Shown: positions 1,837 through 63,600 of the stretch, piece after piece | Numbering within the stretch: position 1 is the stretch's first letter | Layout: each line of letters begins with the position of its first letter | Origin: Hoplostethus atlanticus | Lineage: Eukaryota > Chordata > Actinopteri > Trachichthyiformes > Trachichthyidae | Reading direction: 5' to 3' | DNA: 64,000 nucleotides | NCBI GenBank assembly: GCA_034670405.1 | Contig: JAXDDX010000212.1 | Coordinates: 560,151-624,150 of the forward strand | Made by a program: the position numbers and the translations under genes | Notes under the pieces: generated by a model | The model's input: the letters and a program-made list of their open reading frames with translations, nothing else | The model's database searches: none | Told to the model about the DNA's origin: nothing

Positions 1837-2628
1837 GTACGGTGGCGCACTGCTTGCACTGCTGCCTCACAGCAAGAAGGTCCTGGGTTCGATTCCCGCC
1901 TGGGGCGCTGTTGACTCTGGGGTGTCCAGGTGGGTTATCGTCAATTATGTGTCTGAGCTCTTGTTTATTGGCTCTTGTTCATTTGATACACTTATTTGTC
2001 TTAGCTCTTGCTTATTTGGTTCACTTATTTGTCTTAGCTCTTGTTTATTTGATTCTCTTATTTGTCTCATTTGTTTAAGATATAGTAGGTTGCTAACTTA
2101 TTGCACTCTTACCTTAACACTAGTTATGCTCTTAGTTGCTTGTTTAGGAAGGAAATGCACTTACGATTTCTGGTGACTAGTAGTTTTCTTGCCTACCTAT
2201 GTTGAATGCACTTATTGTAAGTCGCTTTGGATAAAAGCGTCTGCTAAATGACTGTAATGTAATGTAATGTAATGTAATCTCCCGGGCCTTTCTGTGTGGA
2301 GTTTGCATGTTCTCCCCGTGCTCACATGGGTCTCCTCCTATAAAGAACCCATCTAAAAACATGCAACATCCTGTCCTGTCCCTGACCAAGATGAGGACCT
2401 ACACCTGGAACTGGTCCCCGGGCACTGCCCACTGCTCCCTGGCTGTCCCTGGAGGAAGGTCGGCGGGGATGGGGAAATGCAGAGACCTCATTCAACTCGG
2501 ACACCCTACCCTGCATGTGTGTGTGTGTGTGTTGTGTTCGGCGGCCACTTCCCCCCTTGCATGTGTTGTGTGTTGGTGCGTGTGTGCACCCCGAGTTGCA
2601 AATAAAGTAATCTTCTTCTTCTTCTTCA
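1837..2628 (+). mobile_element. DANA-like tRNA-related SINE, split by a younger insertion
   Basis: The left part (1837-1937) has the fish SINE head ggtggcgcactgcttgcact and the tRNA B-box-like GGTTCGATTCC. The body resumes at 2280 with tgtgtggagtttgcatgttc, then the accgg/ctggtccccgggcactgc block, and ends near 2605-2628 with aaataaag and a (CTT)n tail. This order is known from DANA/Mermaid-type fish SINEs. A separate element (1938-2279) separates the two halves. A short second SINE-type tail (about 2629-2668) follows. The exact family is uncertain. Confidence 0.6.
1938..2279 (+). mobile_element. Young SINE-like element, copy 1
   Basis: About 340 bp, starting tcgtcaattatgtg and ending with the fish SINE/LINE tail gtaagtcgctttggataaaa followed by a (TAATG)n run. 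It holds three imperfect repeats of about 30 bp (cttatttgtcttagctcttg). No tRNA-like A/B boxes are visible. A second copy at 31428-31768 differs at only a few positions before the tail, so the family moved recently. It interrupts an older DANA-like SINE. Confidence 0.75.
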
Positions 2629-2674
2629 TTTATTGTAAGTGACTCTGAATAAGAGTGTCAGCTAAAAGCATTGG

Positions 2675-2677
<3 letters not shown>

Positions 2678-2770
<93 letters not shown>
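2678..2770 (+). repeat. (TG)46 microsatellite
   Basis: An uninterrupted TG dinucleotide run that begins just after a SINE-type tail (about 2629-2668). Fish SINE tails often seed such runs. Confidence 0.97.
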
Positions 2771-2773
<3 letters not shown>

Positions 2774-3690
2774 GTTATCAAAGCAAGAACTGAATAGCAA
2801 ATCTGGTAACTTTCATAAAAACCTATTGGACTTTTATTATGACGTATCAACGTATGTGTGTGTGGGTGGTCAAAAATATTTGTTTCTTATTTTTATCTGT
2901 ATTCATCCTAACTATACACTCCATACTCCATCACTCCATACTCGATTCCTCTCATATGTGGATGAAAGGCAAAACAGCTTTCTACCTTTTCATTTCCAGC
3001 TACTCTGTTCGATTAAGAACACATAAAACACTACAGGTGAATAGCAATCAAATAGTGCTGTAAGACCGTACACTTCAGCTTGGTCATCAAACCCCCTGCA
3101 TATTTAGCCCCTCAGTGTCGCCTGCACATTTACCTGTTTCAACACTCCAGATGCAAAACAGTGCTACTTGGGTTTGATGTGACTCCCATCCACGGTGATT
3201 TGAATTTCAAATGGTTTCTGGAGGCATATGTGGATATTCAGTGTAGATTCCATCTGGCACGGTGCATCACAGGAGGCTTTCAGAAAAGCTACTGTTTGAG
3301 TCTTTTCCATGCATTTACAACACTGAAATACAATGTAGTAGTTACTTTGCTGGGGGTTAGTGCCAAGTGAGCAATAAGTCAGATCTTTAAGTCTCAACTG
3401 AGTCTGCAAGACAATGGCAGTATAATGCAGTAACATCCAATCATTTCTACGATAATATGTCCTCTTCTGCAGCCCTCTCCAGACGGCATTAACATTACAA
3501 GGGGAGGTTGGTAATTTGATTTTGCCCATGCACATCAGTGATTTCACTGATCATCAGTCATCCGGCCGGTAAAATATTTTACTGGAGAAGCGTGGTAATG
3601 CAGGAACCCGCCACACAACATCACCTACAGTACAGCAACACTGGCTAAACTTCAAGTGCCTCCATATCATTGTAACGCCAGATGCAGCAG
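2771..3690. other. Intronic sequence, nothing recognised
   Basis: AT-rich intron sequence with no convincing coding or repeat signal on either strand. Confidence 0.5.
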
Positions 3691-3935
3691 CTCCTGTGCT
3701 CTCTCTCTTCCTTTTATTGCTTATTTTCTATTCTGTCTGTGTTCCACAATTTGATCTGTTTTTTTGGCACCAGACTGGGTTTAAATGCACCATCTCTTCC
3801 TTTTATTGCTTATTTTCTGTTATATTTGTGTGCTTATGTTCGATTCTTTTTCCCCTGCTGAATCCTTTTACTTTTGCTGCTGCAACAACCTAATTTCCCC
3901 ACAGGATCATTAAAGTTTCATCTAATCTAATGCAA
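3691..3935 (+). mobile_element. LINE 3' tail fragment
   Basis: The segment ends with ctaatttccccacaggatca, then a ttaaag signal and a (TCTAA)n tail. That is the usual form of a fish non-LTR retrotransposon 3' end. An internal duplication is present: the block tcttccttttattgctta occurs at about 3706 and again at about 3794. No coding part remains, and the clade was not determined. Confidence 0.45.
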
Positions 3936-6355
3936 AGAGTGATGCTGGTCTATCGCCAGTAGTTATAGGACCCTGGTAATCCAGATGCCATGTGGAAGTC
4001 GGCAATTGCGTGGAACACCAGACGTTGATCCGGACGGGATTAAAACTACCCCAGGTTGTCAGAATCATTTCAGATGAAACTTTCGTTCCAGGCAAGATCA
4101 AATTCCTGTAGTACTCAGCAGACCTCCTCTGGTAATGCCGTCCAGAGAGGGCTTACCCTCCCCGTTTCTTCAGCCTTGTCAGAGTCTCACAGTAGGAGGC
4201 TATCCACCTTTTTGATGGGCTGACCGGCTGAGTGGGGCTGGGCAAAGTGCTGAGCACACCACAAAGCTGTCTTACACCTCTTGCCAGCCTGATGTTTGCT
4301 TTCAGCGAGGGAGAAGTGTGTGTATGTAGTTAAAGCCCCACAGTGCGGTGTGTGTACATGTGCGTTGTGTTATGTACAGTCCCATAAAGCACACGAACAG
4401 CAGCACACCCACAACTGACAGTGTGTATGTCTACGTTTATGTTTCTCATGTACCATTAAAATCCCCTAAAGCTGACAAACCGCGCCTCACACTCCTCGTC
4501 ACACACACTTGTTATATGATGTGCAGTCTGGGTGCTGCACCACAGGGGACAGCGCTACACTCTGAAACAAGGAGCTAACAAGCTGTAATCCACTTCAGGC
4601 TCCTCAGGCACAGCGGAGAAAACCCATACCACTATAAAGAGTCTCTGTTTACACAGAGGTCAATGCTCAGCAGCACTGTGTTAAGACGTAGTTCTTTATG
4701 GTGCGTTTACCTTGTGTCACGCATCGGGTCCCACGTGGTGAATTCATATTCGTCGAGGCTAGTGACCACTTTGGCCGTCCTTGGCCAGAAGGCGTGACGT
4801 TTGATGGGCACCAGCTTGTGACCCGCCTCCCGGCTGGGGTCATGGCTGCAGCAGGTACCCATCCCTCCAGCGGACCTCTAGACGATCAGCTGCTCTTTCC
4901 GACTCGATCTCTCTTGACACATCACTGGTACTTGTTCGGCACTCTTTGTCTTCCTTTTCCCGATTTTAAACTTCTGTGAACGTTTGCCCACCTGTTCTGT
5001 GTCTTCTCCTGGCCTCTCCAAGTTTCCCTCTAGATTTTAAGTTTAAAATCTGCATGAACGTTTCTTCCAGCAAAGGTAAATACGATGCAAGAGTGCAGGT
5101 TGGACAAGGACAAGTCGACGCTCTGCTGTTCATTGTCCTCCCAGTTTTAAACAATGTCCTCTCTCACTCCATTTCTCTCCTTTGCTCTGTCCAAACCAGT
5201 ATCACCCCTTTCTTTGTGTCTCCACCATCTTCCCCTCTCCTCTCTGTCTCCAACCTCCCCAGTGCTCCTCACATGATGAAGTGGCCTGGCGCTGTCTCGC
5301 CCGTCTCCTGACAGTGGCACAATTCTTACCGTCTCCCACGAGCAGCCAGACTTTTTTAGAGGCTCAACATTGCATCAACCATCTTGTTGTCTCTCTCCCC
5401 CTGTGCATCTGTGTCCTTCAATCCCTCCTTTGTGTGTGCCCTCCTTTGCTCGGTGTTGAGTACAGATGGACCCCCGCACTTTCCAACCCCAAGCCCCCCT
5501 TGTGGTCCACGGATATCAGTCATGTCGAGAAGAGCCGAGGCAGTCCTACGCTGTCATGCCGCGTGGGCTCGTCATGTGGAGCCACAACAAATTCAACAAC
5601 AACAACAAGCTTCTGAACAATATTTTCCTTTGTTTGCGCAGCACATGTTCATTTCATACACTTTTCCTTTCTGAAGTCTGTTGTTTCCATAGCATGTAGA
5701 TTGAAGTGCTGGCTATATGGCATGCACTGGCAAAGAATAGCATCATCTTGTTAGATAGAGATGACAATGATCACTTTCACCAACATGAGCCTCTTTGCAA
5801 AATGAATTCTGCCTGGTTTTTGATCCTGTGGGTGATGTGTTCTTTAATTGACTCAACATGTATTCAAGCATTCAGTGCTTCAGTGCTCTTTCTTGATTTA
5901 GATTTTGATGTGTTTTACATCAAGGTGAAAGAGCGCATGTGGCAATCACAGATTTCCATTGATGTCTGAGAGTCCGTGGGGTCAGAGCGAGCCGCCCCAG
6001 ACATCATGTGTTGATTTGGTTGAGAGCCGTCTCATGCTCGGTCTCATTCTTACTCTTGTATTTATGAGTGTTGCGCAACTGCTTATTCAAGGGACAGAGA
6101 AAAGCAGCCAGAGAAAAAAAATCAAAGGACGGAGGAAAAAATAAAAAATAAATAAGAGTGGAGCCATCGGTAGCATGCAGAGGAGAGAGGGCGAGAGGTT
6201 TCAACAATTGTACATGGCCACAAGAAGCAGGGCTGAATAGACAAAGGACTCTTTGATAGTAAAGCTGCAAAATCACCCCTGTTTGATGACTTGACTGATT
6301 AGGGTTGGAATAAAACTGGTAATAGGTCCAAGGGTCACAGCACTCACAACCGAAA
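3936..6355. other. Intronic sequence, no gene recognised
   Basis: Several open frames of 60-144 codons exist here (for example 4698-4979 and 5182-5616), but none shows a recognisable domain or splice context. They are treated as chance frames. Part of 4690-5660 is GC-richer than its surroundings and may be an old unidentified repeat. Confidence 0.4.
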
Positions 6356-38776: not shown

Positions 38777-41336
38777 TGCACAGATGGCGCGGCCGTGTCT
38801 AGACGCCGTCGTGGTAGCTCCGCGGAGATTGTGCGTTTTTTTAGTTTTTGTGTTTGTTTTTAATATCTTTTTTTGCACAAACACATCGGCACTAACATCA
38901 TACGAACGCAGCACACTTTTGGACATAAACTTTTGCGCAAAACAAAGATTTTTGTCCACTTTTTCCTTCGACCCAGTGTGGCCGGCAGAGATAGTACGAG
39001 CGAGCCACAACAACAACAGTGGAGACGCATCTATGGGGAGACGAAGGAGAAAACATCGGGGAATTCGGAACAGACTGAGAGTTCAAGCCCACCGTCCACC
39101 TCTGCCCAGCATCCTTCTTGCTAACGTCCAGTCTCTGGAAAATAAGTTGGATGATGTTAGGGCGAGGATTAGATTCCAACGGGACATGAGGGATTGTAAC
39201 ATCTTTTGTCTGACGGAAACATGGCTGACCCCGCTGGTGCCGGATCGAGTCATATGCCCAACCGAGCCCTTCTCTGTTTTCTGTGCGGATAGAACGGAAG
39301 AGTCTGGCAAATCTAAGGGTGGAGGGGTTTGCTTCATGACCAACAACAAGTGATGCAACCCCAAGGACATTAAGACTCTTTCTCGTTCCTGCTCGTCGAA
39401 CCTGGAACATCTGACGATCTCATGCCGTCCATTCTACCTTCCCCGGGAGTTCAGCTCGGTCATCACCACAGCCATCTACATACCACCACAAGCGGACACC
39501 GACGTAGCACTATCGGACCTACAGGATGTGTTATGTCGGCATCAGAACAAGCATCCCGACGCGGCTATGGTGGTGGCTGGGGACTTTAATAGGGCGAACC
39601 TAAAGAAAGTCATGCCGAACTTTCACCAGCACATTACGTGTGCTACCAGAGGGGAAAGAACGTTGGACCACTGCTATACGCCGTTCAAGAGAGGCTACAA
39701 GGCTGTCTATCTCCCTCTGTTCGGCAAATCAGACCATGCCGCCATTTTCCTGCTACCGGAGTATAAACAAAGGATAGCACGGGAAGCGGTAGTGACGAGG
39801 GACGTAAAGCGGTGGTCTGACCAATCAGAGGCTGAGCTACAGGACGCTCTGTGTGACGTCGACTGGGACATGTTCCAATCCAGTTCCAGGGATGTCAGCG
39901 AGTTTACGGAAGTAGTAACGAGCTTCATAGCAACGCTAGCGGACACCATCGTCCCCACGGTAAAAGTTAGGTCCTTTCCTAACCAAAAACCGTGGGTTGA
40001 TAGATCCATCTGCGACGCTTTGAACGCCCGCACTGCTGCCTATAACTCCGGTCTTGTATCCGGCAACATGGACGAGCACAAGGCAGCGTCCTATGGACTG
40101 AGAAGGGCTGTGAAGGAGGCCAAGAGGAGGTACAGAGACAGAGTGGAGTCGCAGATGGAGTAGCGCGACACCAGACGCCTATGGCAGGGGCTACGGACTA
40201 TAACAGACTACCAGGGCAGACCCCCCGCAATTGTGAGTGCCGACGCATCCCTAGCGGACAACCTGAACTCATTTTATGCACGGTTTGAGGCTAGCAACAA
40301 CAGCGCTAGCTCGCCGGCTAACAACAACACTGTTAGCATAGCCGAAGTGAGTTCTACCGCTGGGGATGAACACACACTCTCGGTGACCGAGCACAGTGTG
40401 AGGAGGGCTCTGACGAGGGTGAACACTGCTGGTCCAGATGGCATATCTGGGCGAGTACTGAAGACCTGTGCTAATCAGCTAGCTCCAGTGTTCACCACTA
40501 TATTCAACATCTCCCTGGCTGAGTCTGTGGTCCCCGCCTGGTTCAAGAGATCCACTATTGTCCCTGTGCCCAAGAATGCTTCTCCAGCATGCTTGAATGA
40601 TTATCGACCGGTGGCCCTCACCTCGGTGGTCATGAAATGCTTCGAGAGGCTGATTAAGGACTACATCTGGATCCTGGACTTCCTGACCGCCAGGCCCCAG
40701 GTGGTCAGGGTGGGCAGACACACCTCCAACCCCCTCACCCTGAACACAGGATCCCCCCAGGGTTGCGTCCTCAGCCCCCTACTGTACTCCCTGTACACAC
40801 ATGACTGTGTGGCCAGGTTCAGCTCCAACTCCATCATTAAGTTTGTGGATGACACAGTGGTGGTGGGCCTGATCTCCAACAATGACGAGAAGGCCTACCT
40901 GGAGGAAGTTGCTGATCTGTCACTCTGGTGCCAGGACAACAGCCTCCTCTTGAATGTCACCAAAACTAAGGGGCTGATTGTGGACTTTAGGAGGACACAA
41001 CAACAGAGGACGTACTCACCACTGGGGATTAATGGGACTACTGTGGAGAGGGTGAGCAGGTATAAATACCTGGGAGTCCACATCACTGAAGATCTGACAT
41101 GGACAACACACACTGACACTCTGGTGAGAAAGGCGAGGCAGCGCCTTTACCACCTCAGGCAGCTGAGGAAATTCAAAGTCTCCCGGAGGATCCTTCAGTC
41201 CTTCTACTCTGGAGCTGTAGAGAGCATCCTGACAGGAAGCATCACTGCCTGGTTTGGCAACAGCTCCGCTCAGGACAGGAAGGCTCTGCAGAGAGTAGTG
41301 CGTTCGGCCGAACTCGTGAAAACCCGACATTATTAA
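38777..41336 (+). mobile_element. Rex1/CR1-type LINE, 3'-truncated and decayed
   Basis: The 5' part begins at about 38777 with gatggcgcggccgtgt and a T-rich leader. The coding region gives an APE-type endonuclease (LPSILLANVQSLENKLDDVR, CLTETWLTP, GDFNRANLKK, GKSDHAAIFLLP) and a reverse transcriptase (NTAGPDGISGRVLKTCANQL, NDYRPVALTSV, LNTGSPQGCVLSPLLYSLYT, FVDDTVVVG). Two in-frame stops interrupt it near 39352 and 40160, of the TGG-to-TGA and CAG-to-TAG kind. About 60 codons are missing in frame near 40663, between DYI and WILDFL. This removes RT motif A with its first catalytic aspartate (usually a YSSAFNTI-like block). The 3' end stops at RSAEL (about 41320) instead of continuing to the 3'UTR. 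It is a dead copy. The group name is from motif memory. Confidence 0.82.
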
Positions 41337-42346: not shown

Positions 42347-45300
42347 TTAGCCTTGACTTAAAGACTTCGATAGAGCCTGCCTCTCTGATTGAGGCAGGCA
42401 GACTGTTCCATAGATAGGGAGCCCGGTAAGAAAAGGCTCTGTTACCTGCAGTTTTCTTTTTGACTGTTTATAAGGTTTAATCAAATCGGATAAATAGGAC
42501 GGTGCCATCCCATGTAATGATTTATATGTAAGTAAAAGCACCTTAAAGTCACACCTGGCCTGAATTGGTAGCCAGTGTAATGAGGACAGGATGGGAGTTA
42601 TATGGTCGAATTTCCTAGTTTTGGTCAGGATTCTGGCAGCAGCATTCTGGACCAGTTGTAGTTTTTTAGTGCGCCCAGTAGGTAAGCCCGAGAAAAGGAC
42701 ATTGCAATAATCGATTCTGGATGATACAAAGGCATGTACTAAAATTTCTGCGTCTGCCTCTGTTAGCATAGGTCGAATTTTGGCAATATTGCGAAGATGA
42801 TAAAACGCTGATTTAGTGATCTCCTTAATGTGCAACTCGAATGAGAGGGTAGGGTCGAATTTTACCCCAAGGTTTTTAACGTATGGGCTCTGGGAGATTA
42901 CACAACTATCAAAGTTAAGAGTACTATTCTCAAATAAGTGTCTATGTCTAGCCGGTCCCACAATCAGCATCTCAGTTTTGCTGCCATTAAGGAGTAGGAA
43001 GTTTAGGGACATCCAATATTTGACCTCTGATAGGCAGGCCTCTAGTTTTTGGAATCGGGTGTCATCGGTTGGTTTGACTGGTATGTAAATTTGGGTGTCA
43101 TCGGCGTAGCAATGGAAGTTAATGCCAAATTTGCGAATGATGCCACCAAGTGGTAGCATATAGATAGAGAATAGCAGTGGTCCTAGGACAGAGCCTTGTG
43201 GGACACCAAAGTCCATATTGCAACACTCTGAGGTCATGTTGTTGTAAAAGACGTGGTGTGATCTATCAAGTAGGTAAGACCTAAACCAAGAAAGGACTGA
43301 TCCCCGGATACCAATATAATGTTCAAGACAGTTCAAGAGTATCGCATGATCAATTGTGTCGAAGGCTGCACTCAGGTCAAGTAGCAATAGTGCTGAGGTT
43401 GAATTGGAGTCAATAGCTAACAAAAGATCATTTACCACTCTCGTGAGTGCAGTTTCGGTCGAGTGAAGGGATCTAAAGCCAGATTGGAAGGGATCAAGCA
43501 GGTTATTTTTTGACAAAAAATCTGTAAGTTGACTGGCTACTGTTCGTTCAAGTAATTTGGAGAGGAACGGCAAATTTGAGATTGGTCTATAGTTCTGAAG
43601 TACTTCGGGGTCAAGGTTCGGTTTTTTCAGTAGTGGCTTGATCACGGCCGTTTTAAAGGCGGAGGGCACCGTGCCAGTGGAGAGCGACTGATTGATCATA
43701 TAGAGAATGGAGGGTCCTAAGATAGGGAATACTTCTTTAAGCAGTTTAGCAGGTAAAGGGTCAAGCATGCAGGTCGTGGGTTTTGAAGACAGAGTTAGCT
43801 TGGTGAGAGAGTCTAAGGAAACTAAATCAAACTGTGAGAAAAGACATTCAGCCCGGGGAACACCAAGTGGACTTTTCAGGGGTGAGACGGCACCGCCAGT
43901 AGAGAGTGTACTGGTGATCTCATCTCTAATCAGCGTGATTTTCTGACTAAAAAAGGACATGAAATCATTCGGAGAAAACAGAAAGCTATCAGAGGGGGAG
44001 GGATTCCGTGTTAGCTTAGCAACAGTGTCGAATAGAAACTTTGGGTTGTTTTTATTTGCACTGATTAACCTAGAGAAGTGTGCAGTTTTGGCTGACGAGA
44101 GTGCACATTTATAATTTAGCAAGCTATCATTCCAGGCAAGCCGGAAGACTTCGAGTTTGGTCAATCGCCATTTACGTTCTAGTTTTCTACAGGCTTGTTT
44201 AAGTGCACGAGTGTCGTGGGTAAACCACGGTGCAAACTTCCTAGCGTGGTGTTTTCTAGTGACTAACGGGGCGATTGAGTCAAGCGCGTTGGTAAGGCTA
44301 GCGTTTAGTTCGTTGGCAAAATTGTCGAGTGAGCCAACATGACCGGAGAGTAGTGCGAGAAAGCTGGGCAGTTTTTCAGATAGTAACGAGGCCGTAGTGG
44401 CATTAATACGACGGCTAATATAAGTATCTTCACATTTTTGGCGTGGGAAGATCAATTTGATTTCAAATTTAATGAGATAGTGATCAGATAGGGCGGGCAC
44501 ATAAGAGGAGACCACTAAAGCAGAAACAGGAATGCCACGGGTCAGAACCAGGTCAAGGGTGTTGCCGCCATGGTGGGTTGGTTCATTAACAAATTGAGTG
44601 AGGCCGCAAGTATCAATAAGATCTAGGAAGGCCTTACTGAGAGGATCGGTGGAATTATTCAGGTGAATGTTAAAATCACCGATAATGAGAATATTATCAG
44701 CTCGGGTCACTAAGTCCGAAATGAAATTGGAGAACTCTTCTAAGAAGAGCGAATAGGGCCCAGGTGGGCGGTAAAGTACTGCTAAGTAGAATGATGGGAG
44801 ATTCGTAGCTGTAGGGCGCAGAATCAGGACTTCGAAGGATGTAAATTTGTTGTTAGTGTTGGGAGTAAGACTAAGGATAGGGTTAAATATCAGGGCAACA
44901 CCTCCTCCTTTTTTCGTCTCCCGGGCAACCTGAGAACTAAGAAAGTTTGGGGGAGAAGCTTCAATTAGAGGCAGAAACTCATTTGGCTTTAGCCAGGTTT
45001 CACAGAGACCCATCATGTCTAGATTATGTTCAGTAATCAAATCATTGATCAGTAACGCTTTTGTTGACAATGATCTTATATTGATGAAGCCCACAGTGAG
45101 GCGTTCAATACTGCTAGAGTTTTTATCAATGTTAATGGCAGTATGCGTGGGTCGAATTTCAATTAAGTTGCTGTAATTTACTCTGGGTCGGTAGGAAATT
45201 TGACGGGCGCGGTGGGAGAAAGATACAGTCTTAATTGGAAGGACTATACTGTAATTTTCAAATCGAGAGGTGCCGCTGCCAGAGGATAAAGTAAAAGCAG

Positions 45301-45433
45301 ACTGGTAAAACTCGGTAGATATGGGGGAAAAATGGCGAGGGGGGGGCACAGTCTCAGTCTGTTCTGCTGTAAGCTCTAACCTGGCAGACTCCACACCCTT
45401 TCTAGGCCTAGCAGGTTCTCTAATCACCTGCAT
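42347..45433 (-). CDS. L2 ORF2: APE endonuclease and reverse transcriptase
   Basis: 1028 codons from the first in-frame ATG. The endonuclease (about residues 110-340) has GFINIRSLS, CETWLKPNEF, GDFNIHLN and the SDH motif (PALSDHYLIKF). The RT (about 560-830) has LLDLSAAFDTIDHAILLNCL (motif A Asp), GVPQGSVLGPLLFSIYM (motif B) and FHCYADDTQIY (YADD). The ORF cuts and copies its own RNA into new sites by target-primed reverse transcription. The last 40-odd residues are out of register. After KQSKRKLQV the conserved L2 ending (AFSYRAPYLWNSLPASIREA, FKSRLKTHLF) is found in another frame, so there is a one-base slip in the A-rich run at about 42452-42461. Otherwise the frame is uninterrupted. It lies in the same frame as ORF1, one stop codon downstream. 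Confidence 0.92.
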   Translation of the reverse strand: MQVIREPARPRKGVESARLELTAEQTETVPPPRHFSPISTEFYQSAFTLSSGSGTSRFENYSIVLPIKTVSFSHRARQISYRPRVNYSNLIEIRPTHTAINIDKNSSSIERLTVGFINIRSLSTKALLINDLITEHNLDMMGLCETWLKPNEFLPLIEASPPNFLSSQVARETKKGGGVALIFNPILSLTPNTNNKFTSFEVLILRPTATNLPSFYLAVLYRPPGPYSLFLEEFSNFISDLVTRADNILIIGDFNIHLNNSTDPLSKAFLDLIDTCGLTQFVNEPTHHGGNTLDLVLTRGIPVSALVVSSYVPALSDHYLIKFEIKLIFPRQKCEDTYISRRINATTASLLSEKLPSFLALLSGHVGSLDNFANELNASLTNALDSIAPLVTRKHHARKFAPWFTHDTRALKQACRKLERKWRLTKLEVFRLAWNDSLLNYKCALSSAKTAHFSRLISANKNNPKFLFDTVAKLTRNPSPSDSFLFSPNDFMSFFSQKITLIRDEITSTLSTGGAVSPLKSPLGVPRAECLFSQFDLVSLDSLTKLTLSSKPTTCMLDPLPAKLLKEVFPILGPSILYMINQSLSTGTVPSAFKTAVIKPLLKKPNLDPEVLQNYRPISNLPFLSKLLERTVASQLTDFLSKNNLLDPFQSGFRSLHSTETALTRVVNDLLLAIDSNSTSALLLLDLSAAFDTIDHAILLNCLEHYIGIRGSVLSWFRSYLLDRSHHVFYNNMTSECCNMDFGVPQGSVLGPLLFSIYMLPLGGIIRKFGINFHCYADDTQIYIPVKPTDDTRFQKLEACLSEVKYWMSLNFLLLNGSKTEMLIVGPARHRHLFENSTLNFDSCVISQSPYVKNLGVKFDPTLSFELHIKEITKSAFYHLRNIAKIRPMLTEADAEILVHAFVSSRIDYCNVLFSGLPTGRTKKLQLVQNAAARILTKTRKFDHITPILSSLHWLPIQARCDFKVLLLTYKSLHGMAPSYLSDLIKPYKQSKRKLQVTEPFLTGLPIYGTVCLPQSERQALSKSLSQG

Positions 45434-45457
45434 CCCGGTGAGCTCTACGGACAGATG

Positions 45458-49184: not shown

Positions 49185-51435
49185 TTATCTGATGTTGAGG
49201 CCTTTAGGGTGTTTAGTGCCTAGTCGATGGATCCACCCTCGTTCCGCTCTTCGTCTTTGGGCTGTAGACCATTCCGGGTTATCCTCCAGGACCAGGCCTC
49301 GGAGATGATGAATGCCATGGTCCCGGAAGTGTTGTGCCACGTACTTATCGGCATGTTGTCCAGTCCGGTGAGTGTTACTCCTTATGGTGTATCTATGGGA
49401 GTTCAAACGAGCTCCCAGCCCATTTCGGGTTTCTCCCACGTATTGTGCATTGCACAGTGTGCAGCTGAGAAGGTACACGCAATTTTTCAGTTTGTTGCTT
49501 TTCGAAGATAGATTGCTCGACCAGGTTAAGGTGTATGCCGTTCCGTCTCCTCTGTTCCTCACTGTCGGTCGTCGAGTCAAATCCAGTGTTTGGGTATTAA
49601 CCCTACCCAACTTGGTCCGGACTAAGTAGTCCTTAATGTTGGGATTTCTTTTGTAGGCCGAAATGATCTTGAAGTCCCGACCAAGGTCTTCGTCTTTCAG
49701 GATGTCTTCGAAATTCTTCTTAAGAATCCTATTAGCCCGCGTCGTATATTGTGAGTATGTCGTGATCAATGGAATGATCTGTCTGTCATCCCTTGTTGCT
49801 TTGGGTGTAGGTATTAGGTCTCCTCCTTGAGGGGTTTGAGGTTGGAAGACTTCTTTCTGGATGCGTCTCAGGAAAGATCTGGAGTATCCGCGTGTTTGCA
49901 GGGCCTTAAAGAGGGTCCTGGTCGCCCAATGCCTATCCTCCAGGCGGGTACATATCCGATGGAACCTCAAAAGTTGTGATTTGAGGATTCCGCGGAAAGT
50001 GTGTTGAGGATGAAAACTCGCTTTGTGTAAAAGGGCATGGGTATCCGTGGTCTTGAAAAAGACCTTGATATCCAAGGTTCCTGTAGCTTGGAATTCCGGG
50101 CCCTTGAATGTAGTAGTATCCAAGAAATCCATGCTAGATTCATGAATGATTGGTTTAACCTTGATTGAATGATGATGGGCATTGAAGATGGAAACGAAAT
50201 CTTCAAATTCTTCTTTCGAGTGGGACCAGATCCCCCAGATGTCGTCAAGATATCGTAGGTAAGTGGTTACATTTTGGAAAAATGGATTCCTCCCAGTCAA
50301 CCATGTAGATGTTAGCGTAAGATGGTGCAAATTTCTTGCCCATGGCTGTCCCTTTGATCTGAAGGAAGACTTCTCCATTGAACTCAAAGTCATTCTTTAG
50401 AAGACTGAGTTCCAAGAGTTGCAGAAGCTCCTTATCCGGTCGTGTGGAATCTGGGTATTTGAGGAACCATTTCTTCACTGCTGCTAATCCTGGGATAGAC
50501 TCTATGTTTGTGTAAAGACTTTCCACATCCATAGAGAAAAGGAAGCAGGGTTCCTTGAGGGTGAGGCTTTTTACTTTTGACACAAAGTCATATGTATCCT
50601 TTACATAACTGTCGTGGCGTGTCGACAGTGGATTTAGATGGTAGTCGATGTACTCAGCTATGTTGTAGCTTTCACTGCTACAATCCGACACAATCGGTCG
50701 GCCTCCTGGAATCCGGTTTGGTGTTGGCCATGATTCTGGGGGCTTATGAATTTTAGGCAGTAGGTAAAACTGCCTGGGCCGAGGTGGAGATTTTCCAATC
50801 AGGTAAGTATATTGGTCAGTGGTGATGAATTTCTTATTCATCAGTGTCTTGAGGATCTCTTTGATTTGTGTAGCCGAGGTCAAATAGATTGGTTGGGTTA
50901 ATTTGCTGTAGTATCTAGAATCCTGTAGCTGCCGGTTAGCCTCGTGGACATAGTCCACTCGGTCCATTATGACCGTTGCACTCCCTTTGTCGGCTGGTTT
51001 GATGACGATTAGGTTATTTGATCTCAATTCTTTAAGGGCCCTGATCTCCTCAGCCGTCAGGTTCTTGTTTTCTTCCTGGGTCATGAGATGTTTTATGTCT
51101 AATTGGTCTTTTTCGATAAGGCTTATAAGTTCCTTGGGAAGATCCGATCTCCTCGGTTCCCAATGGGACGGAAGTCAAAAGGGTGGCCTCTCAATAGGAC
51201 CCATGCTAGGTCCAAAGTAGGCGCATAGTTTCAGTTTCCGGTGGTAGGTTGTTAAATGAGCTGCCAGTGCCTCCTTCTTCTTGTTTGTGTTCCAGGTCGG
51301 AACAAAGGACAGGCCCTTTTTAAGTAAACCCTTTTGTGCTTGGGTTAGGGTGAGATGTTTGGACAGGTTTATAATGTCCCCACCTCGTTGATCCTGAGGC
51401 ACTGACAGCTCACCTACGCTAAAAAAGACAGCCAA
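49185..51435 (-). pseudogene. Penelope-like RT with GIY-YIG endonuclease
   Basis: N-terminal NLSKHLTLTQAQKGLLKKGL leads into the RT: IKPADKGSATVIMDR, FYLLPKIHKP, GRPIVSDCSSESYN, FLFSMDVESLYTNI (motif A), IKGTAMGKKFAPSYANIYMV (motif B) and YLRYLDDIWGIW (catalytic YLDD). The linker block TTDTHALLHKASFHPQHTFR and LLRFHRIC follows. The GIY-YIG domain at the C-terminus reads CVYLLSCTLCNAQYVGETRN and ARLNSHRY; the CxxC between the two half-motifs is typical of this group. Length is near that of a whole Penelope-like protein, but the frame is broken in a few places, so it is not expected to work. It would reverse-transcribe and integrate its own RNA. Confidence 0.88.
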
Positions 51436-54654: not shown

Positions 54655-55640
54655 TTATACTTCATTTAGGCCACTAGGAGAAATCGTATTTAATTCTCTA
54701 ATCCAGTGCCTTTCCCTGCTTATCCTCTGTCTTTGAGACCAACATGTCCCGGATTCCAGGCCTGCGATTAAAAGGTTCGCACTCCCATGGCTCCTGAAGT
54801 GCTCATATAGTACGGTAAGTTTATCGGTTCGGTTTATCCTGTAGAGGTGCTGTTTCAAACGTTCCCGTAATTGGTTTTTAGTTTGACCAATATACCATTT
54901 TCCACAGGCCCCACATTCTATCCCGTATACCAGATTTTTTGATTCCAACCCGAAGACGTTCCAGACTGGCGCACTTCTTCCCGTGTATTTATTGGTAACA
55001 TATTTTAATATTCTAAAATATTTCCTAAAAGTATCTTGTTTCTCGCTCTTTAAAGATGCATGTACCAAAAGATCCTTTATATTTTTGTTCCTTCTAAAAG
55101 CAGCTATGAGTCTAAAATCCGTCAATGGTTCCACCATCTCCTGTATTCTTTTAAAATTAGTCTTAACTATAGTGTTAAGTTCCACCGATGATGGAGAGAA
55201 TGTCGAGACAAAGGGGATAATCTTTTTATTTTCCTCTCTTTCCACAGGTCTAATGTCCCTATTAAAGCTTTGTTCTACTTCAGCTTTAATTGTCCTAAGG
55301 AAGGTTCTGCTGTACCCCCTCGGTCTAAGGGCCTGGAAGAGGGTCCTAGTTGCCGACTGGACATCAGCCGCTACTGCACAGATCCGGTGGAACCTTATAA
55401 GCTGGGATTTCACGATCCCCCTATAAGTATGCCTTGGATGGTAGCTGGATCTGTGTAGTAGGGCATGAGTGTCTGTCGGCTTAAAGAAGACCCTTGTCCC
55501 CAGCTTCATGTCCCCATCCTCCCCCTTCATCATGTATACCTCGGTGTCCAGAAACTCGATTTTCTCAGGCTGTAAGTTGTACTTCACCGAGATCGATTTG
55601 TGGTGTCCATTCAAGACGGTGATAAATTCTTTAAAATCAG
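54655..55640 (-). pseudogene. Penelope-like element 2, 5'-truncated
   Basis: The open frame of 319 codons covers the RT thumb region (KIEFLDTEVYMMKGEDGD, FFKPTDTHALLHRSSYHPRH, IVKSQLIRFHRIC), the linker and a complete GIY-YIG domain (VYGIECGACGKWYIGQTKNQ, RERLKQHLYR), ending SPSGLNEV. The RT fingers and palm are missing upstream of about 55640. It clearly differs from element 1, so it is another family. 5' truncation is normal for retroelements that integrate by target priming. Confidence 0.88.
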
Positions 55641-56435
55641 GATTAGGTTTTTGTTATAATATGTTTCTGATGGCTAAAAGCCCTTGGGGCACTGGCACAC
55701 TCCTTCCTGCCTACTGCTTCCATCAATTTTAAATGTCCCTTAGGTAGGTTTCCCAGAATCGGTAGTTATTTTATTTCTATAGACTTATTTAATGTTAAAC
55801 CAACTGATAAACAAAAAGAATAATAAATACATTGATTACAGATGAGACGGATGACAGAGTATGGAGGAGTTTTTTTATTTTTTTAGGTATGTCTATTAGT
55901 TTACTTTCTGGGGCTGAGGAGGATGAACGGTGCCCCCCCCAGCCGATGGCTTGGAGGCCCTGTGCCCCCTGCTCCAATCCCAAGTGGGCTTACCTAATGG
56001 TATGTGAGCTGGGGGGCCTACATTGTTGTATGTCCCCCAGCTCCAGAGGCAGAGGTGCTATGTGTGGGAGGGAGGGAGGGGCGGGGGGGCCCACAGTCCA
56101 GAGGTGTATTAAAGGCCCACAGTCCAGAGGTGTATTAAAGGGGGAGCCCAATGCATAAGTGCTGCTGGTCATAAATATACATATAGACTGACAAAATAAA
56201 TATTGATTCCACAGACATAAATATATATACACGCACCCACAGAAATACACATAAATAAATAAGTCAATAAATAAGGTGCAAGCACGCAAAAAGTCAAACA
56301 GCAGTAAAAACAGGCGTTTATAATAAAGTAAGTGCAAATCAATGAGTCAGTGCAATTTGTGGGCTCCCCTGTCCTCTGGTCTCCATGGGTTGGGCCCCCC
56401 CTCTCTCTCTCTCCCTCTCTCCCCCCCCGGTCCAT
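55641..56435. other. Sequence between Penelope-like elements, with a short duplicate
   Basis: No gene. A 26-bp unit is tandemly duplicated at 56089-56114 and 56115-56140 (gcccacagtccagaggtgta ...). CT-rich and C-run sequence lies at 56395-56430, just 3' of element 3. Confidence 0.55.
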
Positions 56436-57239: not shown

Positions 57240-58133
57240 AGCCACTTCCAAATTTCAATGTAAATAACAGTAAAATAGCATGTTTTGCCTAATTTAAGGT
57301 ATAAAGTCATATTTTCCTATTTTTAATGTTTTTTTAAACTGAACATACATCAAAAGTGTATAGCATGCCATTGTCACCCAAAAGCTCAAATAGGGTATTT
57401 TTGACCACATTTTTTGCAATGTATTGCCAAAAATCTCTTGTTTATCAGGAAACCCTTTAGAATCACGGAGGCCTTTCCTAAGATGTCTTGTATGAGGTCC
57501 TACAACCAAGTATGGCCAAGTTGGCCTCTTTGGAAGAATTGATCAGATAGGTGTAAAAGGCTATGTCTCTTCTAAAGTCTGCTGAAATCTGAACCTGTTC
57601 GGATACCAAAAAGCTGAAAAATCGAGCTACAGGTCTGATTCCGATAAAGGTGATACTGCTCCTCCTGAGCTTTCGGGAACTGTGACTCCCACGTCTCTAG
57701 CCCTGGCCGTTTCAGACTTATGACCTTTCAAAGTTGACTCGATAAAGGAGGACACTGCTGCCATCTTCTCTTCCAGGCCTTTCAGGCAAACCATATCCCA
57801 TGGCTCTATCACCTTTTGTCACAGAGTTTGGTTGGAAGTGACCACACCCACTTAGGGCTGACATATGTGATAAAAACTCTTTGAGAGCTTTCCGACAGTG
57901 TCTTTGCCTCATCCGTCAGTGCTTCCCTTACGGAGATATAACACTTAACAAGGTAAAAATTGTAAACTTTTGACGCCTTCTAGCTCCACCCACAAAGGGC
58001 GGAAAGCAACGGTTCAAAGAGTTCCTGTCCAACTCATGGAGGCCTTTCCGTCGATGCCTGGCTTGTGGCTCTACGACCTAGTATGGCCAAGTTGGCCTCT
58101 TTCATCTAATTAGGCAGGAAGGCCTGAAAGACC
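57240..58133. repeat. Unclassified modular repeat, left part
   Basis: Contains blocks that recur within itself and in 62476-63600: aagtatggccaagttggcct, gggctgacatatgtgataaa, gagagctttccgac, acaaagggcg and tcatggaggcctttcc. The spacing varies, so it is a degenerate higher-order repeat and not a simple tandem. Minus-strand frames are short and carry no domain. Confidence 0.7.
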
Positions 58134-58324
58134 TTAAAGGGGGGGTATTGTACTAATTTGGGCTATTTAAAACTGTTCCTGGGGCTCTTGAAAAGATGTT
58201 TGTGAAGTCTATATCAAAAAAAAATCCTAAAACCAGCTTCTGTGGTGTGTGTTTCAGTCTCTCATTTTCTCCATTGTAAAGAACAGGCTGTTTTGAGGGG
58301 GTGGAGTAGTATGTAATGAGCATG

Positions 58325-58394
58325 TGCTCTGATTGGCCGCCTCACGACCAATCAGAGCACGGAGTGAGGCGACCAATCGCCTGGTGGGGGCGGG
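58325..58394 (+). promoter_or_regulatory. CCAAT-box hairpin and GC box upstream of the ballast gene
   Basis: An inverted repeat with 12-bp arms, tgctctgattgg (58325-58336) and ccaatcagagca (58348-58359), presents two opposed CCAAT boxes. A third CCAAT lies at 58373-58377 and a gggggcggg GC box at about 58386-58394. The gene's ATG is 50 bp further on. NF-Y and SP1-type binding is inferred from the motifs. Confidence 0.55.
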
Positions 58395-58444
58395 AGCAGA
58401 GCGCCCATGCTGCTAAAGGGTAAACAAGCCTGACTACGTTAACC

Positions 58445-59899
58445 ATGGCGGCCGCTCCAGAAGCAACACTCAGTGTTGCAGACTCCGGCTCAAACATGTC
58501 CAGTCTCAGACCGTACATGTTTGAGCCGGAGTCTGACCCAGAATGGGAAGAGGCAGCTGAGGCAGTTCCACTTACAAGAACCCAGCAGAACGTTTCTCAG
58601 TGGTAACAATTTCGTGTAATATTGTACTTTAGTGCGTGCGTGTGTTTTGCGTTTGTGTGTATGTGGGTGTGTGAGCTACACTCTCTGCTGTAGCGGTCTG
58701 TTTATGGCTCATGTCCATAAGCTTATTGAATACAACTTGCAGACAAGCTAGGATTGACAATTTTGTTGAGCTAGTTAGCCAATATATTATTGGATGCAAC
58801 CTATTTGCATCCAAACACCGCAGCGCTACGTTGTTTGGTATACTGTAGTCATATTGAGTGAATTTTCTGCACTACTTCTCGACAGGTGTACTTGTAGAAA
58901 TTGTGCCACAATGCCAAGTGAAAGAGAAAACGTGTGCTGCAGGGAGATCCAAACGGTGACTTGTGATAAAAGACATTCTATCTTCCGTGTAATCAATGTA
59001 GTGTTTATGAAGTTTGGAAAATCCCTGTAGACTTACCGTTTCTCACTCACTTCGGCGAATGAATGAAATCCGAGAACCACCTACATGTATGGTGGATCAT
59101 AGGGGTTTCGGCAATGTTTGCTTGGACATGTTCGTCCTCCAAATGTCAGCTAACCGGTATAGAGCAGACTATGGGCGTTTACAGCATAGGCAAATGGCAA
59201 AGTAAGTATTTTAGTTATTCTATGCATGACACAATTTCTCTAATAATCATAACCAATGGATAATACTGTGCATGACAATAAAAATGAGGACAGTAAGTGT
59301 TTGCATTCGGGGTTTATTTATTTCACGTCAGCAGAAATTACATTGTCAACCGATCAATAGCAAACAAAACATGTGTTGTGATTTACTGAAGTACTTCTCT
59401 AATTTTAGCTGTACTGTTTTAGCTGCATGTAGCCCATCATCAAAATTGAATATATGAAGTATTATAACTATCTAGTGTTCATGTGCTCACACATGTTCTC
59501 TCTTGATAAGTTCAGGGTAAAGACATGTCTTTAATAATTGGTTCCATTGATTATTACATTGTCTACAGGAGCATGACAATTTGTCCTCTTTGATATTTTG
59601 AAATAATTATTAGATTCCTATAACCCACCTAACTCCCGACCAGACCACACTCACAAAGGTGGAAAAAAAAAACTTCCAACAGAAACAATACTCTAATCAG
59701 AATATTTTTTTTTATTCACACATGTACCCTCTTCTCAGTCGTTACAGGTTCATAGCATACAGATGCTTCGTCTGGTGGTGCTGGGGCTACCTAGGCCGCA
59801 GGGTCAGGGTTGTTTTACCGGCCTGTGTGGTGCAGCGGATACGCCGTGAATTCCCTGACACCAGGGGCGAGTACACGGGGTTCAGACCGGCCCTTTGAC
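58445..59899 (+). CDS. Transposon-borne P2X7-ballast-like zinc protein (multi-exon)
   Basis: Exon 1 (58445-58602) starts MAAAPEATLSVADSG in a good ATG context (aaccATGG), includes LRPYMFEPESDPEWEE and ends at a GTAACA donor. Exon 2 begins at 58886 after a GACAG acceptor. The joined codon gives Trp, and the frame reads WCTCRNCATMPSERENVCCR, with five cysteines. The next block (about 59031-59201, donor GTAAGT) has PPTCMVDHRGFGNVCLDMFV and NRYRADYG. The last exon (59739-59899, acceptor CTCAG) reads YRFIAYRCFVWWCWGYLGRR, VRVVLPACVV, and ends EYTGFRPAL. This series matches the cysteine-rich cytoplasmic C-terminus ('ballast') of P2X7 receptors, but there is no channel domain. The exon 2 to 3 junction does not keep frame with the obvious sites, so this copy may be damaged or the boundary misplaced. 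Confidence 0.75.
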
Positions 59900-60228
59900 T
59901 GAAGCAGGACACAAAGTAACTTGTAAAGTAAAAAAAATGTCACTACCTCAATTTTTCATTTGTTGTGTTTCAATTGTACTAGGAATTAAGAATAATAAAT
60001 GGGTGTGTGTGTTAAACATATGGAAAGTTGTGTCTGTGTTCACTGGCTTGGATGTGCACTCTCCGTTCTTGGCCTTGGGAAACTTCCGCGTGAAGACCGG
60101 GTCACCAGCAGATGTTGTGGCTTGGGGATGGTCAGCATCTTCAACCCAACACATACAAAGCTGGGGTGCATAAAAGAAGAGAAATACATGTTATTTCTCA
60201 CCACTCAAGAAAAAGTGTTAGCACTTGT
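59831..60228 (+). repeat. Degenerate internal duplicate of the transposon centre
   Basis: Runs parallel to 60229-61050: 59831 onward repeats the last part of the ballast exon, then sequence matching 60282-60310, 60470-60720 and 60985-61050. The parts equivalent to transposase exons 5 and 3 are missing. A second ballast-gene ending (GMYMGFRPRLY) is therefore present at about 60229-60303. Confidence 0.75.
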
Positions 60229-60283
60229 GTGGCGCTGCGTATATGCTGCAAATTACCTGATGCCGAAGGCATGTACATGGGGT

Positions 60284-62141
60284 TCAGACCGCGTCTTTAT
60301 TGAAGCGGGACACGAAGGCTGCAATTACATCCTCCTTTGCTGGTCTCTCGTACTGGGCACATAAGGTCGTCTGGGACAGGGATCTTCAACAATTCATTAG
60401 AATATGGTTGAGGGTCCTGTAACACGTACTCAAACAGGAGGTCCATCAGCTCATCTGTATAACCTGTATAGTAAAGTAAAGTTATGAAAATGCCACTACC
60501 TCAATTTTCCATATGTTGTTGCCTTTCAATTGTTCTACTTAGCAGTTGTGTATTTAGAATAATAAATAGGTGTGCGTTAAACATACGGAAAGTTGCGTCC
60601 GTCTTCACTGGCTTTGCCGTGCACTCTCTTCTTGAACTTGGGAAACTGCACTTTGAAGAGTGGGTTACCAGCACGTGTTGTGGCTTGGGGACGGTTAGCA
60701 TTTTCATTGAAATGCATGGCAGACAGGTAAAGCCTAAAAAAATAATAAGAATTTTAAAAAAGGAATAATTACAGTACTTGCATAGAGCACATATATAAAG
60801 ATGTGTTGAGACAGTGTAATATCTTGTTTACCTGCACAGCATTCCCAGAAATGGAAAGACAACATTTTTTGGAGCAAAGCGCAGGATGACACTATGGTAA
60901 GACTCCAGCGCTGAGGTCTGATGGTGAGGGCTCAGCTTCTCCACATCCTTTAGGACTCTCTTGTTTGTTAGTGCCTTCTCAAGCTTATACAAAGCTGGGG
61001 TGCCTAAAAGAAGAAAAGTACATCTTATTTCTTGCCACTTATGGAAAAGTGTTAGCAATTCTGTTTCAACATACATCAACTATTATATCATAAATGTAAA
61101 ACTCCTAATCAAAGAATAACATAGGGTGTAATAAGGAAACCTGAACAAGCCCGTAAGACACGTTAGTGCAATGCTTGAGTACACACCTGCTGTCAACCAT
61201 TTGCTCTTGTCTCTTGAAATGCGTTCTGGATGCAGACACTTTGGGAAGATGGGGTCTTCATGGTTGTGGATATCTTGCACGTGGTTGACAATTGATGTCC
61301 ACTTTGCCACCCTCTCTGGCCCAGTTGTAGAAGAAGCTGCAGTCCAGTAGATGTGGTTTTTGATACTGTGCTGCCACTTCTTCAACTGCGCACAGTCCTT
61401 GTCTTTGGAAATCTTTTCCAGTCGCTTAGACAGGCCTAATAATGTAGAAAGTAAAATTTAGTGCAACTCCTTACCTATTTTAATAAGATGTTTTAGTTTT
61501 CTTACTTCTTCTTACACACCCAACAAGCCTGTAGCTAACGTTAGCCCCGCTAGCTCGTTAGCTAACCAGCAGTCGAATATACTAACCAGACTACTTTACC
61601 AAGCAGACACGTTCGACAGACTTATAAAACAGACACTGGTCCCAACAAATAACTTTAACATGAGCCCTGACTCCAACCAATAACTTTAAAAGATGTGTCC
61701 TGACTCCAGCTTTAGTTTTCTTACTTCTTCTTACACACCCAACAAGCCTGTAGCTAACGTTAGCCCCGCTAGCTCGTTAGCTAACCAGCAGTCAAATATA
61801 CTAACCAGACTAACTTGCAAATTATATCAAAACATGGTGACACTTACCGGTTCCAAGTTTGCAGATGGGTCACGTAGAGTGGGAACTGCTCCATCTTTAA
61901 GCTTCAATTTAGTTGATAGTCCTGCTGTGAACTGGCCATAGTTGCTGAAGCAGTCCGGCGTGAAGTGGTTATCACACACAAACAAAGCTGGGCTAACTGT
62001 AGCCGGGACGTCGCCGTTAAAAATAAAATTAATCCACTCCGTCCTGGCATTTTCGCGTGTTGGGATTCTGTGCAGGGATCTATGTTGCTGGCTGCATCCT
62101 AAAACAGAACAACTCTTGCTTTGGGCTCTTGCAGTAGACAT
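60284..62141 (-). CDS. THAP-domain Kolobok-type transposase (multi-exon)
   Basis: Exon 1 (62141-61848) starts MSTARAQSKSCSVLGCSQQH. Its THAP finger has C-x4-C (CSVLGC) and C-x2-H (LFVCDNHF), with the AVPTL end, and a CCG|GTAAGT donor. Exon 2 (61435-61187) has GLSKRLEKISKDKDCAQLKK, HSIKNHIYWTAAS and PIFPKCLHPERISRDKSKWL. Exon 3 (61003-60832) has TPALYKLEKALTNKRVLKDV, LSPHHQTSALESYHSVILRF and APKNVVFPFLGMLCR. Exon 4 (60733-60583) has LYLSAMHFNENANRPQATTR. Exon 5 (60463-60284) has YTDELMDLLFEYVLQDPQPY and ends AQYERPAKEDVIAAFVSRFN KDAV. Splice sites are canonical for exons 1-3. The exon 4/5 junction is unclear, and one extra base near 60360 shifts the last 25 codons. It would bind element ends through the THAP finger and catalyse TTAA-targeted transposition. 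Introns and most of the protein are preserved. Confidence 0.8.
61492..61833 (+). repeat. 219-bp tandem duplication in transposase intron 1
   Basis: 61492 and 61711 both start tttagttttcttacttcttc and run in near identity through gttagccccgctagctcgtt to about 61833. One unit is complete and the second partial. Near-zero divergence indicates a recent event. Confidence 0.88.
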
Positions 62142-62475
62142 GTTGTTGTTGTTGTAGCTCCAATGTTCGCAATGTAAAAACAGCGGCGCTGCCGAGAGCT
62201 GCATTTTGAGACGACGTAAATGGGGGGGGTTGTTCACCTGGGCGTGGGCATGCTCTGAGAGGGGCTGGACTTGTTCCCTATGTCGTCCAAAGAAACCATT
62301 TCTGAAACGGGCCGTTTTGCTCCTATCTTTGGCAACGTTTTGGGAAAAAGGAAAATACAGAAAAACGGGTTGACTTCCAGATTTCAAATTTTCTCAGCTG
62401 TTTAGGGAAGTAATTTCCTGTAGAACATATATAAGCGCTAGGAATAAACGGCTTTCCATAATATGGGCCCTTTAA

Positions 62476-63600
62476 GTCCCACAGGCCTGGCTGCAGTCAA
62501 AAATCCATCGGGCGCCGAAATATTGACTTTGAGATACGGGCTTGATTTTGACATATGTTACAGAGCTCTGCGAGAGGCTTCGGGAACCGTTCCCCCCACG
62601 TCCCTAGCCTTTGGCATTTCCGAGTTACGGCCTTCCAAAGTCTAAAGGTCAAAAGGTCACTCTGGAAAACTTTGCACAGTATTTCTGGTGCTCGTTCAGC
62701 CATACAAAGAGATAGAGACTTGAAACCACTTTGGTGTGAAACCTGGCATCCCTCCGATGAAGTGTGTTGATTTTGGTCCCTCTGGCCCCACAGGAAGGAC
62801 CTCAAAAGGGCCCCCAAAGTCAGGGGGGTCGCCTGCTTTATGTAGATTACATTATGGAAGCATTCAGTAGATGTAAATAGATGAAAATATGGAAGGAAGC
62901 ATTTCCATCCCATCACCTGAAGTACTTGAGGGAAGAGGATGCTGAGGGCACTTTTGCATTCCTGTAATGGAGGCCTTTCAGGCGCACCCCTTCCTGTGTC
63001 TCTATCCCCTTCCGTTGCAGAGTTTGAACCAGAAGGGCGCCACCTAGCCGGCGCTGACATATGTAATAGAGCTCTCTGAGAGCTTTCCACCGGTCTTTGT
63101 CCCTCATCCCTCACTGCTTCCATTAAAGAGATATAGCACTTAACGAGGTGAAAAATCTCAAACTTTGGCGCCCTTTGGTTGCAGAGTTTGGTTGGGAGTG
63201 GCCACACCCACTTGGGGCTGACATATGTGATAAAACTCTTTGAGAGCTTTCCGACGGTGTCTTTGCCACAAAGGGCGCAGAGTGACGGTTCAAAGTGTTC
63301 CTGGCTCAGCTCATGGAGGCTTTTCCAAAGACGTCTCGTTTGAGGCCCTATGACCAAGTATGACCAAGTTGGCCTCTTGGGAAGAATTGATCAGACAAGT
63401 GTAAAAGGCTATGTCTCTTCTGAGGCCTGCTGAAATCAGTACCTACTCGGAGGCTGAAAAATAAAGTTCGAGCTATGGGTCTGATTTTGACATATGTTAT
63501 ACTGCTCCCTCTCAGCTTTGAAGACCATAGATCAACATTTGACTCACTTCCAAAATTTTGAATCGCAGAAAACACGGCCATTTTTCAAGGGTTTAAACAA
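62476..63600. repeat. Unclassified modular repeat, right part
   Basis: Continues the repeat interrupted by the Kolobok insertion. Blocks shared with 57240-58133 include ttggttgggagtggccacac, gggctgacatatgtgataaa, gaagaattgatcagacaagt and aaggctatgtctcttctgag. Internal copies of the gctttcc and gacatatgt blocks occur at about 62550, 63050 and 63215. The 286-codon minus frame (63357-62497) spans several repeat blocks and shows no domain; I regard it as noncoding. Confidence 0.65.

Follow-up and report, generated by a model that had tools for sequence, protein, structure and literature searches.

Our analysis of a 64,000-nucleotide stretch of the genome of Hoplostethus atlanticus (hereafter the window; contig C212, positions 560151-624150) revealed a DNA transposon that spans window positions 58138-62471 and carries two convergent multi-exon genes, namely a minus-strand transposase gene and, on the plus strand, a gene for the ballast domain known from the tail of the P2X7 receptor, named KolX by Kojima and Bao 2022 (PMC9587614). 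The element very probably belongs, as a copy with an internal deletion, to a young Kolobok-type family with Kol0-like architecture in which KolX is an integral gene, and we regard what is said here of the window copy, apart from the role of KolX, as nearly certain. The link between ballast domains and transposons was already published in 2022, and the present element is a rediscovery and a further example of it. All genome-wide searches covered the genome of the species itself (632.8 Mb, 1161 contigs).

The borders of the element could be placed to the base. A TTAA target-site duplication abuts each of them exactly (58134..58137 and 62472..62475), and the terminal inverted repeats, AGGGGGGGTATT on the left (58138..58149, plus strand) and AGGGCCCATATT on the right (62460..62471, minus strand, compared as reverse complement), agree at 8 of 12 places and are identical in related copies. 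The termini read AG...CT, i.e. 5'-RR/YY-3'. Such ends alone were discarded as proof of a transposon because they are too weak: 16 TTAA pairs in the window pass a loose test of TTAA pairs and ends, as opposed to a mean of 3.0 and a maximum of 8 across 30 Markov shuffles, and the majority of these pairs clearly arose by chance. An empty site was therefore sought, and two paralogous host repeat units within the window were found to match the joined flanks without a break at the junction (57463..57734, plus strand, 182/275 identical or 66%; 63266..63507, plus strand, 174/245 identical or 71%). Together with the sister copies described below, these units bear out the preliminary description, made from the sequence alone, which had reported TTAA on both sides and inverted ends. 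The host repeat units flanking the transposon (57463-57734, 57600-58137 and 62476-63507) are diverged, roughly tandem and ~66-91% alike in pieces; a Pfam search with a 297-amino-acid open stretch on the minus strand of these repeats (62500-63390) gave no match. Within the element lies an internal duplication, also present in sister copies, whose first copy (59824..60230) holds the 3' end of KolX and remnants of the transposase 3' part in blocks 74-86% identical to the second copy (60226..61064), where the transposase 3' exons are in use.

The first exon of the transposase gene (61848..62141, with donor site) encodes a THAP DNA-binding domain (61875-62111; Pfam THAP, E 8.7e-13), which also matches THAP structures (E 3.6e-5). 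A minus-strand, multi-exon transposase gene with a THAP finger had been predicted and is indeed there, although its core is missing in the window copy. Further minus-strand exons were delimited by open frames, splice sites and comparison with L023, a longer copy of the element: LSKRLEK...FPKCLHP (61187..61435), TPALYKLEK...SALESYHSVILRFAPK (60832..61003), LYLSAMHF... (60587..60733) and the last exon YTDELMDLLFEYV... (60297..60463), the end of which is unlike that of L023. The site of the missing core is marked by 111-nucleotide direct repeats (61492..61821), beside which three copies (L022, L023 and L024) carry ~2.3 kb of extra sequence at element position 3355 (window ~61492). GGDMRADSPG, VTDRHPQ and DVWH occur in exons of this extra stretch, and we take them to be the Kolobok catalytic signature. 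A DDE transposase with C/DxxH motif can accordingly be read in L022, L023 and L024 (D, D, DVWH, and an E placed by eye); it cannot be read in the window copy, in which both catalytic D exons are missing. The last catalytic E likely lies in exon 60832..61003, again as assigned by eye, and a stretch HNHEDPIFPKCLHP in the right exon is a candidate H2CH zinc finger between the second D and the E, recognised by eye only. With its core deleted, the window copy cannot make transposase.

KolX consists of four plus-strand exons encoding the P2X7 ballast domain (Pfam P2RX7_C, PF20478). Exon 1 (58445..58602) is an open frame, conserved in 14 aligned rows, with a canonical donor whose phase fits exon 2. 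Exon 2 (58886..58955), supported by its splice sites, contains the cysteine motifs WCTCRNC and VCCRE and matches P2RX7_C weakly when taken alone (E 0.14, profile 82-106). Exon 3 (~59050..59201) contains CMVDH, VCLD and VLQ. Exon 4 (YRFIAYRCFVWWCWGYLGRR to the stop; 59739..59898) matches the profile at 143-192 (E 7e-11) and P2X7 chains in PDB (E 1.1e-8), which substantiates the multi-exon ballast gene noticed earlier on this strand. Junctions 1/2 and 3/4 are canonical and in phase. Between exons 2 and 3 of the window copy no canonical in-frame GT-AG junction was found at the conserved place, and all eight frames obtainable by forcing a junction drop or add conserved parts. A 7-nucleotide stretch that supplies the acceptor of exon 3 occurs in 11 of the 14 aligned rows and is absent from the window copy, L019 and L026; the window copy thus lost this acceptor through a 7-nucleotide deletion. 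Neither this damage nor the loss of the transposase core had been noticed in the preliminary description. When read as four exons, six of the 14 rows (L021, L022, L023, L024, L025 and L028) are open to a common stop, with an altered part of exon 1 in L025 and L028; four (L016, L017, L018 and L020) terminate differently, L015 and L026 are frameshifted, and the window copy and L019 are without the acceptor. Exon 1 includes a near-perfect palindrome (58479-58535, 28-nucleotide arms), and L025, L026 and L028 differ at it and have a changed KolX N-terminus. The KolX protein of L022 (180 amino acids) matches P2RX7_C with E 8e-18 and 65.5 bits, compared to a curated cut-off of 23.5; this is its sole Pfam match, without any P2X channel domain. 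Synonymous (0-5) and nonsynonymous (0-6) differences of the other KolX copies from L022 are too few to judge purifying selection.

Searching the genome with the element gave 87 matches, with 40 of 1674 candidates scored, and the counts that follow from it are lower bounds. At least nine places, among them that of the window, are 97-100% identical to the element over its positions 1-4334, and there are many partial matches. A first batch of 20 stretches was fetched, from 20 of the 41 places with a ballast match. In eight copies both ends were fetched (L016, L017, L018, L019, L021, L023, L025 and L026); all eight are TTAA-flanked with identical ends, and seven have flanks different from those in the window. 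L019 shares its flanks with the window and therefore represents the window's own insertion on another contig. The long copies L022, L023 and L024 differ pairwise at 9/6611, 19/6610 and 22/6640 sites (0.14-0.33%), so that the family must have moved recently. KolX lies within the TTAA unit in all 12 main-family sister copies of which the left half was fetched. Non-autonomous relatives with similar TTAA-flanked ends, 77-91% alike in pieces, were observed 61 and 605 nucleotides from a main copy (L018:8020-9775 and L023:7363-9160, respectively), and on contig C240 a main copy and a non-autonomous piece are 4 nucleotides apart and perhaps have a TTAA in common. Scans of viral and prokaryotic contig collections found no relatives of the element.

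The association of the two genes extends beyond this family. A peptide from the transposase core exon had 19 matches in the genome and P2RX7_C had 41, and at 14 of the 19 a ballast match is found 0.9-2.4 kb away, always on the opposite strand, where 0.01 would be expected by chance. In a second family (L031, L032, L034 and the broken L035) KolX is accompanied by a convergent transposase with GDGRCDSPGHSAK, STDRHPQ and DPWH; its ends read TTAA-AAGGAACCCC, the left end being present in three loci. A third family has Kolobok transposase matches on the opposite strand at 2.5-4 kb (L036) and 3.3 kb (L038), and in a fourth (L013/L014) both transposase and ballast matches occur. At least four divergent families thus have the layout of KolX plus convergent transposase. 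Because of this layout and the linkage at 14 of 19 places, and because two copies without KolX (L039 and L040) are explained by internal deletion, KolX forms an integral part of the element as its second gene. The suggestion in the preliminary description that Kolobok-type transposons may carry ballast domains along as a second gene therefore holds here, with the 2022 publication having priority.

Ballast matches of other kinds were also observed. A dispersed, mostly degenerate repeat family with the ballast in one frame is represented by L010:4773-5099, L011:4855-5208, L012:4884-5099, L027:4991-5221 and L030. The transposase searches of the genome gave no Kolobok transposase match near these five places, and four open frames in their vicinity had no match in Pfam. 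The idea that they are nearer to the receptor was discarded, with L011 matching KolX at 31% (E 3e-12) and the receptor exon of this genome, L009, at 25% (E 2e-8). Other single ballast exon types, for which no element was traced, occur at L037:1887-2147 and L033:1827-2117.

Several observations weigh against our reading of the element. No ballast match lies near five of the 19 core-exon matches, namely L039 (contig C9), L040 (contig C42) and those on C591, C431 and C364, of which the first three were inspected. L039 and L040 are TTAA-bounded copies that lost KolX by internal deletion, which in L040 reaches from before exon 1 to the stop codon of exon 4 and leaves most transposase exons in place. 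KolX is therefore dispensable in cis for the existence of a copy. On C591, near the contig end, no ballast frame was found in the 4.4 kb fetched. The linkage of ballast and transposase was counted within one genome of one species, the frame between exons 2 and 3 of KolX is broken in the window copy, and the transposase was read exon by exon rather than as a single proven frame. In L023 the exon with the first D has a frame difference, so that not all long copies are intact.

On the evidence of a single window, the ballast gene could still belong to the host, or could have inserted separately and later, landing by chance in a Kolobok copy, and ballast exons do exist without a nearby transposase match, e.g. 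at L010, L011, L012, L027 and L030. We consider this hardly credible given the linkage at 14 of 19 places, the recurrence of the layout in divergent families and the position of KolX in the sister copies, which refute a separate insertion for the main family; that option was discarded. The preliminary description had named as telling against its own proposal either intact relatives that consistently lack the ballast gene or ballast exons that are an insertion with boundaries of their own. What was found instead is that the core-bearing copies L022, L023 and L024 carry KolX inside the TTAA unit, and that its absence from L039 and L040 goes back to internal deletions. Even more remote is the view that the element is a piggyBac transposon. 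piggyBac likewise duplicates TTAA, and families of it with KolX-like proteins have been reported, in which a KolX-like C-terminal part is sometimes encoded (Kojima and Bao, PMC9587614). However, the AG...CT ends follow the 5'-RR/YY-3' rule given for Kolobok in the same paper, the transposase has THAP and DVWH motifs, the full cysteine set is kept in KolX, and no piggyBac model was among the Pfam matches of the exons scanned.

The Kolobok-type element in its complete form measures ~6.6 kb, with one gene for a THAP and DDE transposase and, convergent to it, KolX. By analogy with the superfamily, the THAP domain would bind the ends and the DDE core would cut out the element and paste it into TTAA. 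The window copy presumably moved with enzyme from longer copies, and KolX may act in the pathway of the transposase. For KolX itself we tentatively favour the role of a partner in transposition that binds protein or DNA in a zinc-dependent manner, a possible but by no means assured function, since this small zinc-built protein has accompanied the transposase in four or more diverged families. Mobile elements at times use accessory genes to counter host defences, and KolX could act against host silencing or against zinc- or nucleic-acid-sensing defences rather than in transposition; this appears unlikely, as it found no direct support and the conserved fold and convergent linkage would suit any trans-acting role. 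It is far less probable still that KolX responds to guanine nucleotides or zinc and serves as a partner in trans, comparable to the insertion with which the P-element transposase binds the GTP it needs (PMC7776569). In that case the P2X7 tail would owe its nucleotide site to the control of transposons, but only two of five residues of that site are kept in KolX. A further proposal concerns the shortened THAP gene, whose product in the 4.3-kb copies might be a repressor competing for the ends. This 4.3-kb class has itself been amplified (at least nine full-span places listed, the window included) with an open THAP exon, competition by Kolobok copies without DDE has been proposed for Xenopus (PMC6004289), and a P-element review cites the KP protein as a repressor (PMC7776569). 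We nevertheless think it improbable, somewhat more so than a defence-directed role of KolX: the THAP exon (phase 0) and the next kept exon (phase 1) are not joined in frame, so that no more than a short THAP protein ending in an unrelated tail could result, and deleted copies can amplify without any function.

The homology of the receptor tail with the element protein is confirmed. In addition to the P2RX7_C match given above, KolX of L022 matches human P2X7 at 465-592 (E 2.6e-11), and the genome has a P2X7 receptor gene of its own (L009; P2RX7_C, E 3.7e-61), which like the repeat content suits a bony fish. In an alignment of five rows (human P2X7, P2X7 of the same genome, KolX of L022 and two other KolX proteins) six zinc cysteines occur in every row and the seventh in four; L022 has all seven. 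Of the guanine-nucleotide site (R546, H547, R574, R578 and K583) only R546 and R578 are kept in KolX. The residues of this site are likewise not kept in non-deuterostome domains according to Rump et al. 2020 (PMC7016195), who report that the P2X7 ballast binds GDP and whose account of ballast capture, in the relevant passages, makes no mention of transposons. Kojima and Bao identified the ballast fold in KolX and traced the P2X7 tail back to it, and passages of their paper that deal with KolX propose no function (PMC9587614). The raw sequence and the whole genome thus independently confirm the proposal of 2022 that relatives of the P2X7 tail are working parts of mobile elements. A young family with open KolX genes would furthermore offer a practical system to learn what the ballast fold does, in the element as well as in the receptor.

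Elsewhere in the window we observed remains of non-long terminal repeat retrotransposons at 42353-45457 (minus strand; RVT_1, E 1.8e-34, and an Exo_endo_phos domain) and 40164-41333 (plus strand; RVT_1, E 1.6e-14). Two minus-strand frames with GIY-YIG domains (49191-50396, E 4.5e-5; 54661-55653, E 1.2e-5) presumably belong to Penelope-like elements.

Compared to known systems, the element is closest to the Kol0 lineage of Kolobok (type Kolobok-1_XT; Kapitonov and Jurka; PMC9587614), with which it has TTAA, 5'-RR/YY-3' ends, DDE with C/DxxH and KolX in common. Nothing essential was seen to differ; the internal duplication and the amplified 4.3-kb deleted class are traits of its own, and the placement is based on architecture. 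A THAP domain has been described in the Kolobok superfamily (PMC6004289) and is common to the transposases of P elements and THAP9, and the C/DxxH motif is found in both Kolobok and P (PMC9587614); the P element differs by its 8-bp duplications and by a GTP-binding insertion inside the transposase (PMC7776569). With the P2X7 ballast (PF20478) KolX shares the domain, the seven zinc-ligand cysteines and the invariant arginines R546 and R578 (human numbering). It differs from the receptor in the absence of the channel part and of H547, R574 and K583, and its ballast is distributed over four exons, whereas that of the receptor is one open frame (L009). Finally, the Nanor proteins of zebrafish, likened here by description, are host proteins with a stand-alone ballast (ZCD), and Nanor is a domesticated KolX according to PMC9587614.

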